Origin: Patescibacteria group bacterium
GTDB lineage: Bacteria; Patescibacteriota; Patescibacteriia; SCPX01
DNA: 43,157 nucleotides
Direction: 5' to 3'
NCBI GenBank assembly: GCA_004298615.1
Contig: SCPX01000072.1
Span: 1 to 43,157 of the forward strand
Every line of letters begins with the position of its first letter. Position 1 is the first letter of the stretch. The position numbers and the translations under genes are program-made. Below the pieces are notes generated by a model. It did no database searches and was not told where the DNA came from. It saw only the letters and a list, made by a program, of their open reading frames with translations. Below, in pieces: positions 2,987 to 43,157 of the stretch.

Positions 2987-5014
2987 TTAAACTTGCTGGT
3001 GTATCGGCAAAGCAAAAGAAAAAGTCGTGCCCTTGTTTTCCTGCGAAGAAAACCACATTCGCCCTCCGCTCGCCTCAATGATTGTCCGTCCGATATAAAG
3101 GCCGAGGCCGGATCCTTCGGTCTGCACCTTCATCACATTATCGGCTCGGAAAAATTTATTAAAAACTTTATGCTGCTGATCTTTGGGAATGCCGATGCCG
3201 TTGTCCTTGATATTGAAAACCAGCTCATTGGGATGCCGTTCGTAAAATAATTCTATTTTTCCGCGTCCGGAAGTGTATTTGATGGCATTGGAAACCAGAT
3301 TCATAATCACTTGGCGAATTTTATCGGGATCAACGAATACATCGGGCAATTTGGTGTCGGCAAATGCCGATTGAATAGTGATATTGCGAGCGCGCGTGAG
3401 GGGGGTAAGCTCGGTGATAACGCTTTGGAAAATATCTCCAAGCTGGGTCGGCTTAGGCTCAAATTTTATTTTTCCAGACTCCATGCGCGAAACATTTAAA
3501 AGATCATTGACGAGCTTGATCATCCGTTCATTGCTCTCGTAAGCGCGGTCCAAAAATTCTTTTTGATTCTCATTAATCGCGCCGGCATCGCCAGCGATAA
3601 GCATTTCCAAAAACCATTTGATGGCCGACAAAGGCGTGCGCAGCTGATGGCTGGCCACGGACACGAATTCCGATTTCATCGTGTCAATTTCTTTTTCCAA
3701 TGTCACATCGCGGAAAGCCACGATGCCGCCCGCGACTTCTCCGCGCCGCAATATCGGCGCGATGCTCATAATGACCGGAAAGCGCGTCCCGTCCTTGCGC
3801 GCCAATTCCATGCCTCTGACCATATCGGCCCGGCCTGATCGCCAAATCTCATCCACGGGTGATTGGCCGTTTTTGGCTTGCAGTTCGCCCTTTTCATTAT
3901 AAATTTTAAAAATTTCTCCGGCTAAAACTCTCAAAACATCAGTTTCTTTATGAACCAGCAAATTTTCGGCCTGGCGGTTAAAAAGCACGATTTTATTATC
4001 CGCATCAACCACATAGACGCCTTCGCCAATGCTGCGCAAAATGGTTTCCAGGCGATTTTTCTCCTGTCCGATCTCCTCTTTCGCCTCTTGAACATCTTCC
4101 AGTATATTCAAAACCGCTCTTTTAGTCTCTATCAATTCTTGATTTGATTTTTCATAATCCATCTTTTCTTTCTCCAATTCATCGGCCAAATTCTGAAGCT
4201 GGCGCGTGCGCTCTTTGACTCTCATTTCCAAGGCGTATGACGATTTGCTCACGGTTTGTTTCATATTCACGACCGAGCGGGTAAGCGCGAAAATTTCGTC
4301 TCTGATTTTCTGCCCGGCATCCGGCAAATCGCCCGCGGAAACCGCCTTGTTCAATTGACGCACCGGACGTAAAATTAAAAAACGGAGGAAATAAACGAAT
4401 ACGGCGAAAAAAATCAAAAATTCAATCAATACGGTAAGCCAAATAATCCATTGGACTTTCACCAAATAACCCTGGAGATTGCCCAGACTGTAATAGATCT
4501 CAACCACCCCGGACGGCAAGCCCTTGCCATTCATTAAAATCGGAACATACACCCGGACCGAATCGCCCGCAATGCGATACACCGATCCGACCGGCCCGTT
4601 TTTTTCATTGTTAATCGCTATTTTTCCTCCGGCCGCTTGGACCAAAAAATCATTGCTTGATAAAGTCTGTCCGACCATTTCTTCATTGTCGGAAAACACC
4701 ACTTTTCCGCTCGCGTCCAAAACTGAAATTTGCCGGATTTCATTGTCTCTCAACTGCTTGGAAAAATCATTAAATAAAGAAATGTTGTAAAATTGCCGGT
4801 TATCGGAAAAATAATCAGCCGGAAAAACTTTTTCGGCCGTTTGCTTGATCCGGCCGCCGTCCACTTCTTTGATTCTTTCAAATATCAATCCCCGCACCGC
4901 CTTGACCACTTGAGAGCCGAAGATAATCCCGAATAACGTTGAAAACAAAAAAACCGGCACGAAAAATTTCACTTGCAGGGAAACGCGCGAAGAAAATGGT
5001 ATTTTTTCAGACAT
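2987..5014 (-). CDS. Membrane sensor histidine kinase with HAMP-like linker and PAS domain
   Basis: Two TM segments, PAS-like GEGVYVVDADNKIVLFN, H-box ASHQLRTPLSAIKWFLEM, N/G boxes NLVSNAIKYT, DNGIGIPKDQ, GSGLGLYI. Confidence 0.93.
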   Translation of the reverse strand: MSEKIPFSSRVSLQVKFFVPVFLFSTLFGIIFGSQVVKAVRGLIFERIKEVDGGRIKQTAEKVFPADYFSDNRQFYNISLFNDFSKQLRDNEIRQISVLDASGKVVFSDNEEMVGQTLSSNDFLVQAAGGKIAINNEKNGPVGSVYRIAGDSVRVYVPILMNGKGLPSGVVEIYYSLGNLQGYLVKVQWIIWLTVLIEFLIFFAVFVYFLRFLILRPVRQLNKAVSAGDLPDAGQKIRDEIFALTRSVVNMKQTVSKSSYALEMRVKERTRQLQNLADELEKEKMDYEKSNQELIETKRAVLNILEDVQEAKEEIGQEKNRLETILRSIGEGVYVVDADNKIVLFNRQAENLLVHKETDVLRVLAGEIFKIYNEKGELQAKNGQSPVDEIWRSGRADMVRGMELARKDGTRFPVIMSIAPILRRGEVAGGIVAFRDVTLEKEIDTMKSEFVSVASHQLRTPLSAIKWFLEMLIAGDAGAINENQKEFLDRAYESNERMIKLVNDLLNVSRMESGKIKFEPKPTQLGDIFQSVITELTPLTRARNITIQSAFADTKLPDVFVDPDKIRQVIMNLVSNAIKYTSGRGKIELFYERHPNELVFNIKDNGIGIPKDQQHKVFNKFFRADNVMKVQTEGSGLGLYIGRTIIEASGGRMWFSSQENKGTTFSFALPIHQQV

Positions 5015-5114: not shown

Positions 5115-6296
5115 TCAAGCCAATTTGAGCGCTTTTCTTTGCCGGTAAATGCTTTGCACTATTCCCAATCCGATAAAAGTGGAAAGTAAAGAGCTCCCGC
5201 CATAGCTCACCAAAGGCAAAGGAATTCCCATAATCGGAAACAATCCGACATTCATGGCGGAATTGATTATTGTTTCGCAGGCGATCAGCACGAAAAAACC
5301 GGAAATCACCAGATAACCGAAATCATCGCGGCTGGTTTTGGCCGCGATATACAGCCGGTAAAAAATCACGGAAAGCGCTGCGAAAAAAAGCGCAATACCC
5401 AGAAAACCGAATTCTTCGGCAATGGCCGCGAAAACAAAATCAGTAGACGCTTCGGGTAAAAAATGAAGCTGGCTCTGCGAGCCGGACCCCAAGCCTCGCC
5501 CAAAAATCTGTCCCGAACCCACGGCAACAATCGATTGAATGGCCTGATAGCTGGAATCGGAACGAGATAAATCCTGAAAAGGATCCAAGAAAGCGAGGAT
5601 ACGGTTTTTTTGATACGGCTCAAGCACGGTCCATCCGGCCGCACCGAAAATTGAAGCTAAAATCAATAAAATCGCCACCCAGCGCCAAGAAATACCGCGA
5701 AAAATTATGAGGCCAAACCAAACAAACATAAAAAGAATCCCTGACCCCAAATCCGGCTGCAGCATCACCAAGCCGAATAAAATCGCCGTAAAAACAAAAG
5801 ACATGATAATTGATCGCACGGCCGAAAAATCAGTCCGGCTCAAAAATTTAGCCAACACGATTATCAAAATTATTTTCACAAGCTCCACGGGCTGAAAGCC
5901 GAGCGGGCCGAAACGAAGCCAGCCGGTAGTGCCGTGAGTGGTCTGTCCGATAATCAAGACCGCCGCCAGAAAACCAAGCGCGAATAGAAACAAAAAAGAG
6001 GCTGATTTGCGAAGCTGATTGTAATCCATCATTGAGAAAACGATGAAAGCAAAAAAAGAAATGGCGATCCATCCGGCTTGCTTGAAAACCTTTGATCCAA
6101 GACCCACCATTCCTCCATCCAAGCTGTAGAGCGCGAGCAATCCGAAAACGACGAGCATTGCGATTCCGGCCGCCATAAAAAAATCAAGCTGGCGCACGGA
6201 ATTAATTACCGACGCAAAGCTGTTATTGAAATTCAAGCGATTCGCATTATTCACAAATTTATCAATTAAAAATCTGAGCGGCGTCGCCCTGATCAA
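5115..6296 (-). CDS. rodA: Rod shape-determining protein RodA (SEDS family)
   Basis: SEDS motifs: QPDLGSG, AIAEEFGFLG, GIPLPLVSYGGSSLL. Confidence 0.9.
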   Translation of the reverse strand: MIRATPLRFLIDKFVNNANRLNFNNSFASVINSVRQLDFFMAAGIAMLVVFGLLALYSLDGGMVGLGSKVFKQAGWIAISFFAFIVFSMMDYNQLRKSASFLFLFALGFLAAVLIIGQTTHGTTGWLRFGPLGFQPVELVKIILIIVLAKFLSRTDFSAVRSIIMSFVFTAILFGLVMLQPDLGSGILFMFVWFGLIIFRGISWRWVAILLILASIFGAAGWTVLEPYQKNRILAFLDPFQDLSRSDSSYQAIQSIVAVGSGQIFGRGLGSGSQSQLHFLPEASTDFVFAAIAEEFGFLGIALFFAALSVIFYRLYIAAKTSRDDFGYLVISGFFVLIACETIINSAMNVGLFPIMGIPLPLVSYGGSSLLSTFIGLGIVQSIYRQRKALKLA

Positions 6297-13800: not shown

Positions 13801-13839
13801 ATTCCCACTTACTTTGCCATGGCTTAATTAAGTGGGAAT
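13801..13839 (+). repeat. 39-bp imperfect palindrome, copy A (downstream flank of PaaX-like gene 1)
   Basis: ATTCCCACTTA-CTTTGCCATGGCTTAAT-TAAGTGGGAAT: perfect 11-bp arms around a near-centred GCCATGGC. Confidence 0.95.
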
Positions 13840-14420
13840 CTGTAAAAACGAAATTCTTTTTTTAATTCTTCGTCAATTCCGATACTTTGAGCGACAATCA
13901 GTCTTAATTCCTTTTGGGAAAGGCCGAAAAAATCTCTAAGCAATTCTATCTCGGCCTGACATTCGTATGGGTGAACCCATACGCTTTTCTGTAAGGAACG
14001 AAACCCAAGATCCTTGAGTTTTCCGCGAAAAGCCTCGCGATAAATTTTCTTGATTTGCGCAATGTCAAAAATAACCAATCGCCATTTTTTATCCCATTTT
14101 TTTTGTTTGGCTATTTCTAAGTCATCAATCTGCATCCAACCCGCCTTACGCTTTCCTTTTTCAGTAAGGGAGATATAAATCTGATGATTAACGGTTTGAA
14201 ATTGAAGGCACCCCTGCTTTCTCAACCGCGAAAAAGCGTTGGATATTTTTTTATTCGGATATTTGCCGAGCTTTGAATATCTTCTCAAAAAACTTCTGAT
14301 AAAATACGGCGAACCGGCGGCGATATATATCGCCCCTCCGATCGCCAATAACTTAAGAATATCTTGAATAATCGCTGATTTTGGCTTTCTAAAATAATAT
14401 TTATATTTTCGCATCGTCAT
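13824..14420 (-). CDS. PaaX-like protein: wHTH plus Cas2-like ferredoxin-fold domain
   Basis: ISLTEKGKRKAG wHTH tail; KKWDKKWRLVIFDIAQIKKIYREAFRGKLKDLGFRSLQKSVWVHPYEC resembles the Cas2/PaaX-C core (strand-1 Asp, later G-x3-QKS). Start taken at ATG 14420; the ORF track extends to a TTG at 14435. Confidence 0.85.
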   Translation of the reverse strand: MTMRKYKYYFRKPKSAIIQDILKLLAIGGAIYIAAGSPYFIRSFLRRYSKLGKYPNKKISNAFSRLRKQGCLQFQTVNHQIYISLTEKGKRKAGWMQIDDLEIAKQKKWDKKWRLVIFDIAQIKKIYREAFRGKLKDLGFRSLQKSVWVHPYECQAEIELLRDFFGLSQKELRLIVAQSIGIDEELKKEFRFYRFPLN

Positions 14421-14466
14421 ATATTCTCTAAACAAACCCTCTCTTTTTATTTAATCCATCATTATC

Positions 14467-14505
14467 ATTCCCACTTACTTTGCCATGGCTTAATTAAGTA
14501 GGAAT
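14467..14505 (+). repeat. 39-bp imperfect palindrome, copy B (upstream flank of PaaX-like gene 1)
   Basis: ATTCCCACTTACTTTGCCATGGCTTAATTAAGTAGGAAT; 38/39 identical to 13801-13839, same orientation. Confidence 0.95.
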
Positions 14506-23320: not shown

Positions 23321-23373
23321 AATACTAAAATCAGACTTCAATAATTCAATAATGTTTTAAGAAAATAATTCTG

Positions 23374-23405
23374 GTCGCACATTGTGCGATCGCACCATCT
23401 GCGAC
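23374..23405. repeat. Solo palindrome with GCGATCGC centre
   Basis: GTCGCA-CATT-GTGCGATCGCAC-CATC-TGCGAC; outer arms and core share the exact centre 23389.5. Confidence 0.9.
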
Positions 23406-23446
23406 TAAACTATTTTTATCAAGAAACCTCGCGCTAAATAATATTC

Positions 23447-23480
23447 TGTCGTACATATGACGATCGACTGATGTACGACA
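23447..23480. repeat. Solo palindrome with CGATCG centre
   Basis: TGTCGTACAT-ATGA-CGATCG-ACTG-ATGTACGACA; 10-bp perfect arms, shared centre 23463.5. Confidence 0.9.
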
Positions 23481-23597
23481 TTGAATCAAAATAAAAATAA
23501 AAAAAATAGTTTTTTAGTTTAAGTGCGGCCGTCGTTGACTAAAAACACTTAACAAAAATTATAATCTAAGAATCACAAAGATTCAAAAACTCTAAGA

Positions 23598-38558: not shown

Positions 38559-38600
38559 AATTCACATGTTAACTTGCGATCGCATGTTAATATGTGAATT
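38559..38600. repeat. 42-bp near-perfect solo palindrome, same family as the flanks of PaaX-like gene 2
   Basis: AATTCACAT-GTTAACT-TGCGATCGCA-TGTTAAT-ATGTGAATT; all arms share centre 38579.5. Confidence 0.95.
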
Positions 38601-38605
38601 CAAAG

Positions 38606-41601: not shown

Positions 41602-41940
41602 ATGAATATTGGATCTCAAAAATTATCAAAAATTTCCGCCGCCAAATTGATTTTCGCGTTTTTTATCGGCGCTTTTATCGCGCTTATTATTGCCGGCATC
41701 TCTTTTTTCGCGGTTATCGTCATCGGAGACAGCGCCATCGGCCATTCCTTCAAGATCGGAGGAAACAATTGGTGGACGATGATATTATCGTTTACAAAAA
41801 GCGATGACGGATTTTCCGCCGGTTTTGGCGGCGGAGCGATTTTAATAATTATCGCCGCAGGATTATTCAATGGCGCCGCGTCCGCATTCCTGCAAGCGCG
41901 CAAAAATAAAAAAAACGCGGACCAATCGCGCATAATTTAA
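41602..41940 (+). CDS. Small membrane protein (112 aa)
   Basis: Two to three hydrophobic segments, co-directional with the ABC/M50 cluster. Confidence 0.7.
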   Translation: MNIGSQKLSKISAAKLIFAFFIGAFIALIIAGISFFAVIVIGDSAIGHSFKIGGNNWWTMILSFTKSDDGFSAGFGGGAILIIIAAGLFNGAASAFLQARKNKKNADQSRII

Positions 41941-41957
41941 TAATTATTTAAAAAATC

Positions 41958-41996
41958 TTGCGCCGTATTTATGCCATGGCTTAAATCCTGCGACAA
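41958..41996. repeat. Imperfect palindrome with GCCATGGC centre
   Basis: CGC.G.ATTTA-t-GCCATGGC-t-TAAAT.C.GCG about centre 41976.5. Confidence 0.75.
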
Positions 41997-42002
41997 AAAA
42001 TA

Positions 42003-42043
42003 TTACATCTTTTCAAACGATCGCAAGTTAACATGTAAATTTG
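42003..42043 (-). repeat. Palindromic flank, downstream of PaaX-like gene 2
   Basis: TTACATCTTTTCAAACGATCGCAAGTTAACATGTAAATTTG (plus strand); 36/41 identical to 42697-42737. Confidence 0.92.
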
Positions 42044-42047
42044 ATTT

Positions 42048-42641
42048 TTACTTTAAATCAAATTTATGCCGCAGATCAAGACCATTGTCTATGTCTTTCG
42101 CTATTAAAAATCGCACATATTGGCGCAGGTTAAACAACTCAACGATAAAATCAATTTCGTTCTTGCATTCATACGGAAAAATAAAAACGCTCCGCTGGAG
42201 CGGATAAAAATCCAATCGGCGGAGCATCCCGGCCAGAGCCATCCGCTCGCGCTTCAAACATTCGGGAATATCAAAAATAACCAGCCGCCACAAACCGTCC
42301 CATTTTACCGGCTTCTTTATCTTCATTTTGTTCGGATGATATTGCAACACCCTTTTCTTTCCTTCGTCCGTCAATTCAAGCATTAATGTTCCGTCGGAAT
42401 TTTCAATACAGTGAACGACTCTTGATTGATACAGCCTTTTGATAGAATCACGCAACGCCCGGTGATTTATATTTTTCCATTCCTTTGAAGCACTCTTAAT
42501 AATGCGAAAGTGGGCGCCCGGTCTCCTTGTAAGCGATAAAGCGGCTCCGGCCGTCAAAAGAAGAATGACTTTTTGCATCACCGGTCCCATTTTTATCGCG
42601 CTGTCCTTGTTTTTATTTTTTATAACTGAATCGTCCGGCAT
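42048..42641 (-). CDS. PaaX-like protein: wHTH plus Cas2-like ferredoxin-fold domain
   Basis: LELTDEGKKR wHTH tail; VKWDGLWRLVIFDIPECLKRERMALAGMLRRLDFYPLQRSVFIFPYECKNEIDFIVELFNL. Confidence 0.87.
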   Translation of the reverse strand: MPDDSVIKNKNKDSAIKMGPVMQKVILLLTAGAALSLTRRPGAHFRIIKSASKEWKNINHRALRDSIKRLYQSRVVHCIENSDGTLMLELTDEGKKRVLQYHPNKMKIKKPVKWDGLWRLVIFDIPECLKRERMALAGMLRRLDFYPLQRSVFIFPYECKNEIDFIVELFNLRQYVRFLIAKDIDNGLDLRHKFDLK

Positions 42642-42696
42642 ATTATTAAATTCTCATTTCTAATTCATTGTTTAATTATACCATTATAACACAAAC

Positions 42697-42737
42697 TTAC
42701 ATCTTTTCAAGCGATCGCAAGTTAGTGTGTGAATTTG
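42697..42737 (-). repeat. Palindromic flank, upstream of PaaX-like gene 2
   Basis: TTACATCTTTTCAAGCGATCGCAAGTTAGTGTGTGAATTTG (plus strand), same orientation as 42003-42043. Confidence 0.92.
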
Positions 42738-42769
42738 GAAAAGATTGAAGATTAAAGAAATATGTTTTT

Positions 42770-42810
42770 AAAAAATAAGGGCTCGGAGTTGTAAAAAACT
42801 CACGAGCCCT
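42770..42810 (-). terminator. Rho-independent terminator for the small gene at 42845-43009
   Basis: GGGCTCG GAGTT gtaaaa AACTC a CGAGCCC; reverse strand continues TTATTTTTT. Confidence 0.8.
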
Positions 42811-42844
42811 GAATGTACTAGTCGTACCAAAAAGAACAAAATAA

Positions 42845-43009
42845 TTAGCGATTTTCTGAATCGGCTGGAACGGCCACGTATTCGGGGCCGTATTTTTTTA
42901 CAACCGAATCATTGGCCGCAAGAAAGTCCTTCGCTTCAACGAGATCATTGATCTCTTTAGCGTAAGGATTTTCCAATCCCCCGCGGCGGATTACCATGAA
43001 CTTTTCCAT
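42845..43009 (-). CDS. 54-aa hypothetical protein
   Basis: MEKFMVIRRGGLENPYAKEINDLVEAKDFLAANDSVVKKYGPEYVAVPADSENR; strong SD GGGAGGTC upstream, terminator downstream; below the ORF-track length cut-off. Confidence 0.75.
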   Translation of the reverse strand: MEKFMVIRRGGLENPYAKEINDLVEAKDFLAANDSVVKKYGPEYVAVPADSENR

Positions 43010-43023
43010 AATGACCTCCCTTC

Positions 43024-43157
43024 TTATGGATTAACCAGATATCTTCCGTCTGTGACGCCCCATCCCTGCATCCACATTTCCGGAGTGGCGCGAACAAACG
43101 AAGATCCGGTGGAAAGAGCGACGACAAAATCGCTCGTTGTGGGGTCATACAGACCGA
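43024..43157 (-). CDS. C-terminal end of a CDS running off the window
   Basis: Reverse frame ...GLYDPTTSDFVVALSTGSSFVRATPEMWMQGWGVTDGRYLVNP*. Confidence 0.65.
   Translation of the reverse strand, partial: GLYDPTTSDFVVALSTGSSFVRATPEMWMQGWGVTDGRYLVNP

Follow-up and report, generated by a model that had tools for sequence, protein, structure and literature searches.

A PaaX/Cas2-like gene family of Patescibacteria bracketed by its own palindromes, a candidate REP-like system

Genes coding for a small protein that joins a winged-helix-like region to a Cas2-type domain were found, in a Patescibacteria group bacterium and in other genomes, to be bracketed by two copies of a palindrome, and further copies bearing the arms of one or another of these genes were found dispersed over the genome. 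Judged from the sequence, the partnership between protein and palindrome is very probably real. Our preferred reading, which we consider probable, is a REP-like system in which the winged-helix and Cas2-type protein spreads its palindrome. More tentatively, a Cas2-type nuclease working without Cas1 might cut the palindrome centre and thereby duplicate both the palindrome and its own gene. The window analysed was the whole stretch of 43,157 nucleotides of contig SCPX01000072.1, and the features of the cassette at 42003-42737 and of the sequence around it are as follows.

42003..42043, no strand: imperfect palindrome on the 3' side of the gene, CGATCG centre, TTACAT...ATGTAA arms, TTACATCTTTTCAAACGATCGCAAGTTAACATGTAAATTTG
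42697..42737, no strand: palindrome on the 5' side of the same cassette, TTACATCTTTTCAAGCGATCGCAAGTTAGTGTGTGAATTTG
42048..42641, minus strand: PaaX_M/Cas2-like ORF of 197 aa (Pfam)
42675..42688, minus strand: two -10 hexamers resembling TATAAT, located between the ORF and its 5' palindrome, read from the sequence
38562..38602, no strand: solo palindrome of the arm family of the 42-kb cassette, in the gap between divergent genes
41957..41996, no strand: CCATGG-centred palindrome adjoining the 3' palindrome, with the centre type of the 13.8-kb locus

The two bracketing copies, TTACATCTTTTCAAACGATCGCAAGTTAACATGTAAATTTG and TTACATCTTTTCAAGCGATCGCAAGTTAGTGTGTGAATTTG, lie in direct orientation and are identical at 36 of 41 positions, all five differences being transitions, just as the first-pass annotation had described them. 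The copy at 42003 is an imperfect palindrome in which 9 of 15 outer pairs are matched. The ORF between them matched Pfam PaaX_M (E=7e-18) and, weakly, CRISPR_Cas2. Because of the TATAAT-like hexamers, the 5' palindrome probably overlaps the promoter of this gene. No Rfam match was obtained within 41800-43157 and none with PHROGs, while PADLOC reported a weak Cas2 only. A reading of the palindromes as terminators was rejected, the T-run being absent at those of the 42-kb locus and the CGATCG centre being specifically enriched.

A search of the 1.15-Mb genome returned seven PaaX/Cas2-like genes on six contigs. The first-pass annotation had called the present cassette the second of its kind, next to a 13.8-kb locus of matching layout and unrelated palindrome sequence. 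That comparison stands (CCATGG centre there, CGATCG centre here) and the cassette is real, but "second" was an under-count; five other genes, the dispersed cognate copies and the Cas2 active-site pattern described below had all been missed. The additional features in the window are given here.

13824..14435, minus strand: first PaaX/Cas2-like gene of the window (P0002)
13801..13839, no strand: 3' palindrome of the 13.8-kb cassette, CCATGG centre, overlapping the last codons of the ORF
14467..14505, no strand: 5' palindrome of the 13.8-kb cassette
23370..23409, no strand: dispersed palindrome with GGTCGCA arms, one half of a doublet; cognate gene L006 (contig C49)
23444..23483, no strand: dispersed palindrome with GTCGTA arms, other half of the doublet; cognate gene L005 (contig C65)

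By reading, all seven genes are bracketed by palindromes of about 36-40 bp, six with a CGATCG and one with a CCATGG centre, and with arms that vary from gene to gene. The automatic paired-palindrome test recovered five of the seven. By our reading, imperfect copies explain why the 42-kb locus (L001) was missed, and a shift of one arm by one base is the probable reason in L003.

Palindromes were then counted in 1.005 Mb of the 1.15-Mb genome, about 13% of which lies outside this census. There were 33 CGATCG-centred palindromes that stood out, most of them between ORFs; they made up 9.6% of the 342 sites with this centre, and no other six-base centre represented by 10 or more sites exceeded 2.7%. 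Twenty of the 33 lie away from PaaX/Cas2-like genes, and 17 of these solo copies agree in 6-7 of 7 arm positions with one of six genes, a score reached at 16 of 283 other CGATCG sites. Since strict palindromes other than those at the genes reach only modest numbers (15 per Mb in this genome, and 5 in 395 kb of genomes lacking the gene, some of them terminator-like), the case for dispersal rests on this arm matching.

Several palindromes form doublets, 72-96 bp apart, in which the palindromes are conserved and the spacers have diverged. Five of them, at 23370-23483 of the window and at L016 1508/1590 and 3708/3792, L066 5245/5317 and L019 18249/18324, consist of a GGTCGCA-arm and a GTCGTA-arm palindrome in constant order at distances of about 72-84 bp; their spacers are unrelated. 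Copying of the doublet as a unit that includes the spacer was ruled out, as the spacers are not conserved.

To examine the association across genomes, 305 relatives were collected in a scan of one genome per species, and 80, mostly from Patescibacteria, were kept. The test looked for a palindromic 36-mer near the start of the gene together with a matching 36-mer after its stop or, alternatively, for two palindromes with C/G at +/-3; ORF starts were automatic, and all genomes were drafts or metagenome bins. Paired palindromes were found at 70 of the 80 homologous loci elsewhere and at 18 of 28 more distant loci of the same class, compared with 3 of 123 other genes on the same contigs, indicating that the bracketing is not due to chance. 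The enrichment over control genes agrees with the first-pass annotation, which had considered chance unlikely from two occurrences. At the same threshold none of 13 canonical PaaX-family genes from plasmids passed. In a first test run, two of the three best control scores (L125 and L157) came from further palindrome-bracketed genes, the one in L125 being a second PaaX-like gene. The family is patchy, being present in 31 of 144 genomes of the class with up to 10 copies each. No relative was found on viral contigs, and plasmids searched with query P0001 yielded canonical Rhodococcus PaaX genes only.

Four loci (L115, L151, L157 and L162) come from bins labelled Omnitrophota, Thermodesulfobacteriota, Micavibrio and Syntrophaceae. 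The proteins of the first three nest among those of Patescibacteria in the tree, by transfer or by binning error; the few members outside Patescibacteria may be binning errors.

The protein consists of an N-terminal winged-helix-like region and a C-terminal Cas2-like ferredoxin domain with D124, R133, Q149 and S151. Its AlphaFold model had a mean pLDDT of 75, the N-terminal part being of lower confidence, and Foldseek placed E. coli PaaX (8a39) first, followed by Rv0674 and then by Cas2 nucleases. The stretch carrying the four residues aligns with Sulfolobus Cas2 3exc. As in Cas2/VapD nucleases, the Asp that is catalytic in those enzymes follows beta-1 of a ferredoxin fold and is accompanied by an Arg and by Gln-x-Ser at beta-2/3, the Gln and Ser having counterparts in Sso Cas2 (PMC10491678); unlike in those nucleases, the domain is fused to a winged-helix-like region, and no Cas1 was found in the genome. 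Conservation among homologues was 91/91 for D124 and for R133, 90/91 for Q149 and 89/91 for S151. With PaaX repressors the protein shares the winged helix and the PaaX_M (Cas2-like) domain, but it has no PaaX C-terminal domain and is 197 aa long, compared with about 277-335 aa in the repressors examined. Asp and Gln, kept here, are absent from 13 of 13 canonical PaaX-family proteins, and Ser is absent from 12 of 13. As the canonical proteins without these residues are also without flanking palindromes, the bracket goes together with a retained Cas2-type nuclease signature. Scores remained below the cut-offs of the full-length PaaX equivalog TIGR02277 (22 bits, cut-off 264.55), of CRISPR_Cas2 (17.3 bits, cut-off 23.8) and of TIGR01573 (16.2 bits, cut-off 24.5); a copy in genome G066 reached a Cas2 score of 27.2 in Pfam. 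The whole genome gave no match to the Y1 (HUH) transposase family PF01797, for which control genomes were positive, and none to Cas1 (PF01867).

The main rival to a REP-like system is a purely regulatory role, in which the members of a family of PaaX-type transcription factors would each have a palindromic operator of their own to bind, the upstream copy serving autoregulation and the other copies a local regulon, without any mobility. The winged-helix-like N-terminus and the closest fold, PaaX, agree with such a role, and a repressor would explain why, in several copies, TATAAT-like sequences adjoin the upstream palindrome. We nevertheless consider it rather unlikely to be the whole account, since it leaves unexplained why most loci have a matching copy beyond the stop codon, and since the Cas2 signature kept here has been lost in canonical PaaX regulators. 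The positions of the solo copies also bear on it. Eleven solo palindromes are placed in gaps, 5 of them tandem, 5 convergent and 1 divergent, while tandem, convergent and divergent gaps hold 63%, 13% and 23% of intergenic bases. There is thus no promoter bias but an excess in convergent gaps, which is opposite to what is expected of operators, although the numbers are small (n=11).

The anatomy of the palindrome was determined from 90 pairs. Pairing was about 0.9 at +/-1-4, about 0.6 at +/-5-8 and about 0.85 at +/-11-17, and G was present at +/-3 in 178 of 180 cases in either half. Read outwards, each half-site consists of Y-M-G-Y, four free bases, an A/T-rich stretch at 9-11 and a locus-specific arm, and both the pairing and the similarity between copies fade at about +/-21. 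Conservation and pairing are both highest in the centre, which has no loop. Mismatches of the G.T type (147 on the sense strand) were not enriched over A.C mismatches (127). The paired, loop-free centre and the lack of a G.T excess speak for a dimer that recognises double-stranded DNA symmetrically; a role as RNA or as an interrupted hairpin was disfavoured on the same grounds. The dip in pairing at +/-5-8 agrees with double-stranded DNA being contacted in two zones, a point in favour of the regulatory rival.

Core type was clustered on the protein tree, with 38 changes compared with 49.6 after shuffling (none of 200 shuffles was as low), so that palindrome type follows protein clade, a point the first-pass annotation had raised. 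Core similarity was correlated with identity in the Cas2-like domain (r=0.275) and less so with N-terminal identity (r=0.19), and the correlation of arm similarity with Cas2-like domain identity was weak (r=0.107); none of 300 permutations equalled any of the three values. The arms diverge fast and approach background below 60% protein identity. The two copies at one locus match far better than copies of related proteins do, for which arm identity was about 0.3 even at 50-60% protein identity. Such fast divergence fits a rapid change of specificity, as has been described for RAYTs and their REPs (PMC2817692).

It also fits a second rival, in which the palindrome is a target site that is duplicated as a whole when the gene inserts (compare the CRISPR repeat on spacer acquisition), the bracket being a target-site duplication of unusual length and the solo copies being empty targets, or in which the palindromes are joints between integron-style cassettes. 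The close match of the bracketing copies is as this rival predicts, and so is the preference for direct over inverted orientation among asymmetric pairs (34:12), but inverted brackets occur too. There is no integrase in evidence, no Cas1 having been found in the organism's own genome. In view of these points and of the syntenic sites described below, we regard the target-site account as quite improbable.

Signs of movement of the palindrome come from genome G066, where one 24-bp palindrome core occurs in 11 exact copies and one compensated variant, AAATTCTC...GAGAATTT. The flanks of these copies are mostly unrelated and the reversed pattern has no copies. Exact copies at 11 scattered sites are not explained by a regulator. 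Five of the exact palindromes lie around one PaaX/Cas2-like gene (L206) and bound successive small-ORF segments beside it, which agrees with the target-site account.

Gain or loss of whole units is seen at syntenic loci, in which the names aldolase-like and dehydrogenase-like are our reading of the translations. A unit precedes the aldolase-like gene in L112, L136 and L158 and is absent from this place in L147; the unit of L147 lies between the aldolase-like and dehydrogenase-like genes, where L136 has none. No left-over palindrome was present at these empty sites, before the aldolase-like gene in L147 or after it in L136, contrary to what empty targets would predict. In L129 the unit separates two neighbours whose homologues in the present genome converge across a short gap that contains no gene of this family. 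All these comparisons are between species, which are too diverged for junctions to be placed. A search of the genus, family and order for relatives returned the organism's own genome only, and a clean empty site at strain level was found for none of the solo palindromes.

A third rival does without any acting protein: the palindromes would be a side effect of replication, in which template switching from one hairpin arm to the other keeps them perfect. Inverted repeats become homogenised through template switching (PMC8604942, PMC8794818). Double changes between copies led from paired to paired states in 49 cases and from paired to unpaired in 10, as such correction would produce. In G066, one palindrome family has copies in L225 whose outer arms have changed and yet pair (AGGACG/CGTCCT), and copies in L234 with a longer, locus-specific paired extension, GTGTCGTGTCCC/GGGACACGACAC; both agree with this rival, and both suggest either template-switch correction or a hairpin intermediate. 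It gives no reason why the palindromes go with one gene family, share a centre and have cognate arms, and as a full account we consider it very improbable. Template switching may act on top of the REP-like system that we prefer.

In that REP-like system, the protein would act as a symmetric dimer on its own palindrome of about 36-42 bp. The Cas2-like dimer would recognise the conserved centre (right half Y-M-G-Y outwards) and probably nick or cut it, and recognition of the gene-specific arms at +/-12-18 would fall to the winged-helix parts. The gene is bounded by two palindromes, and the same-arm copies, dispersed and mostly intergenic, would behave as cognate REP sequences. The protein would most likely drive the spread or duplication of the palindrome, and at times that of the entire palindrome-gene-palindrome unit; it would probably also repress its own promoter, which the upstream palindrome abuts. 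The sequences themselves show the bracket, the correspondence of one arm family to one gene, the dispersal, the gain or loss of units in syntenic places and the kept Cas2 signature; we infer dimer binding, DNA cleavage and movement of the palindrome by this protein rather than by another enzyme. To our knowledge, no Cas2 fold acts as a transposase, and we know of no catalysis of integration by CRISPR Cas2 itself, which counts against a spreading role.

Among known systems, RAYTs and their REP sequences (also REPINs and BIMEs) are similar in that a small single gene is bracketed by two palindromes, the palindrome type is dispersed mainly between genes with one family per gene, doublets occur, the system is chromosomal, and compensatory changes keep the palindromes intact (PMC2817692, PMC3116915). 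Unlike a RAYT, the present protein has no Y1/HUH match and has winged-helix and Cas2-like parts instead. REP palindromes are interrupted mid-way and carry a GT(A/G)G head, whereas here the centre is continuous and is the most conserved part; copy numbers here are low (tens at most), and the brackets are more often direct than inverted. Elements of the IS200/IS605 type are likewise small single-gene units bounded by palindromes, but the units described here have no Y1 transposase, and their ends are a matching palindrome pair with a conserved centre, a site of double-stranded type. CRISPR repeats differ in being arrayed, while the present palindromes are dispersed. As it is neither a RAYT, nor a canonical PaaX, nor a CRISPR adaptation module, the family appears to represent a new kind of palindrome-associated system, to which binding, cutting and mobility would be contributed by its protein. 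No open PMC paper was found that contains both PaaX and Parcubacteria, and nothing relevant was found there on PaaX/Cas2 with REP/RAYT or mobility.

The only type of partner protein known to us for REP sequences is the HUH tyrosine transposase. If the proposal is correct, a second, unrelated REP-type partner with a Cas2-type active site exists, and palindrome dispersal arose more than once. Nuclease-type Cas2-fold proteins would have a role in cells outside CRISPR, and a widespread resident element of Patescibacteria genomes would have been identified. If a Cas2-type protein does the spreading, Patescibacteria would harbour a selfish element of REP-like kind that parallels the duplication of CRISPR repeats and has no relation to HUH transposases. 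The many matched pairs of protein and site, with their fast-changing specificity, form a test set for DNA reading by winged-helix and Cas2 dimers. Automatic annotation hides the system under the labels "PaaX-like regulator" or "Cas2".

Some loci showed further details of arrangement. In L206 (positions 4058-5869 of contig C6 in G066), the small ORFs at 4240-4896 and 5208-5768 lie between exact palindromes and have no Pfam match; both are preceded by a palindrome and by a shared stretch of about 90 bp with a TTGACA-like box, and they are possible cargo cassettes of the palindrome system. At about 4510-4640 of L112, the aldolase-dehydrogenase junction contains two GATCGC-containing sequences with inverted end arms, ATCCCGTTAGAAG and CTTCTAACGGGAT, and differs from that of L147. 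In L125 (2944-4750), two PaaX/Cas2-like units are separated by a small zinc-ribbon-like ORF, and the second of them is closer to the unit of L142 (2896-3540) than the first, though it is the first that holds the matching place.
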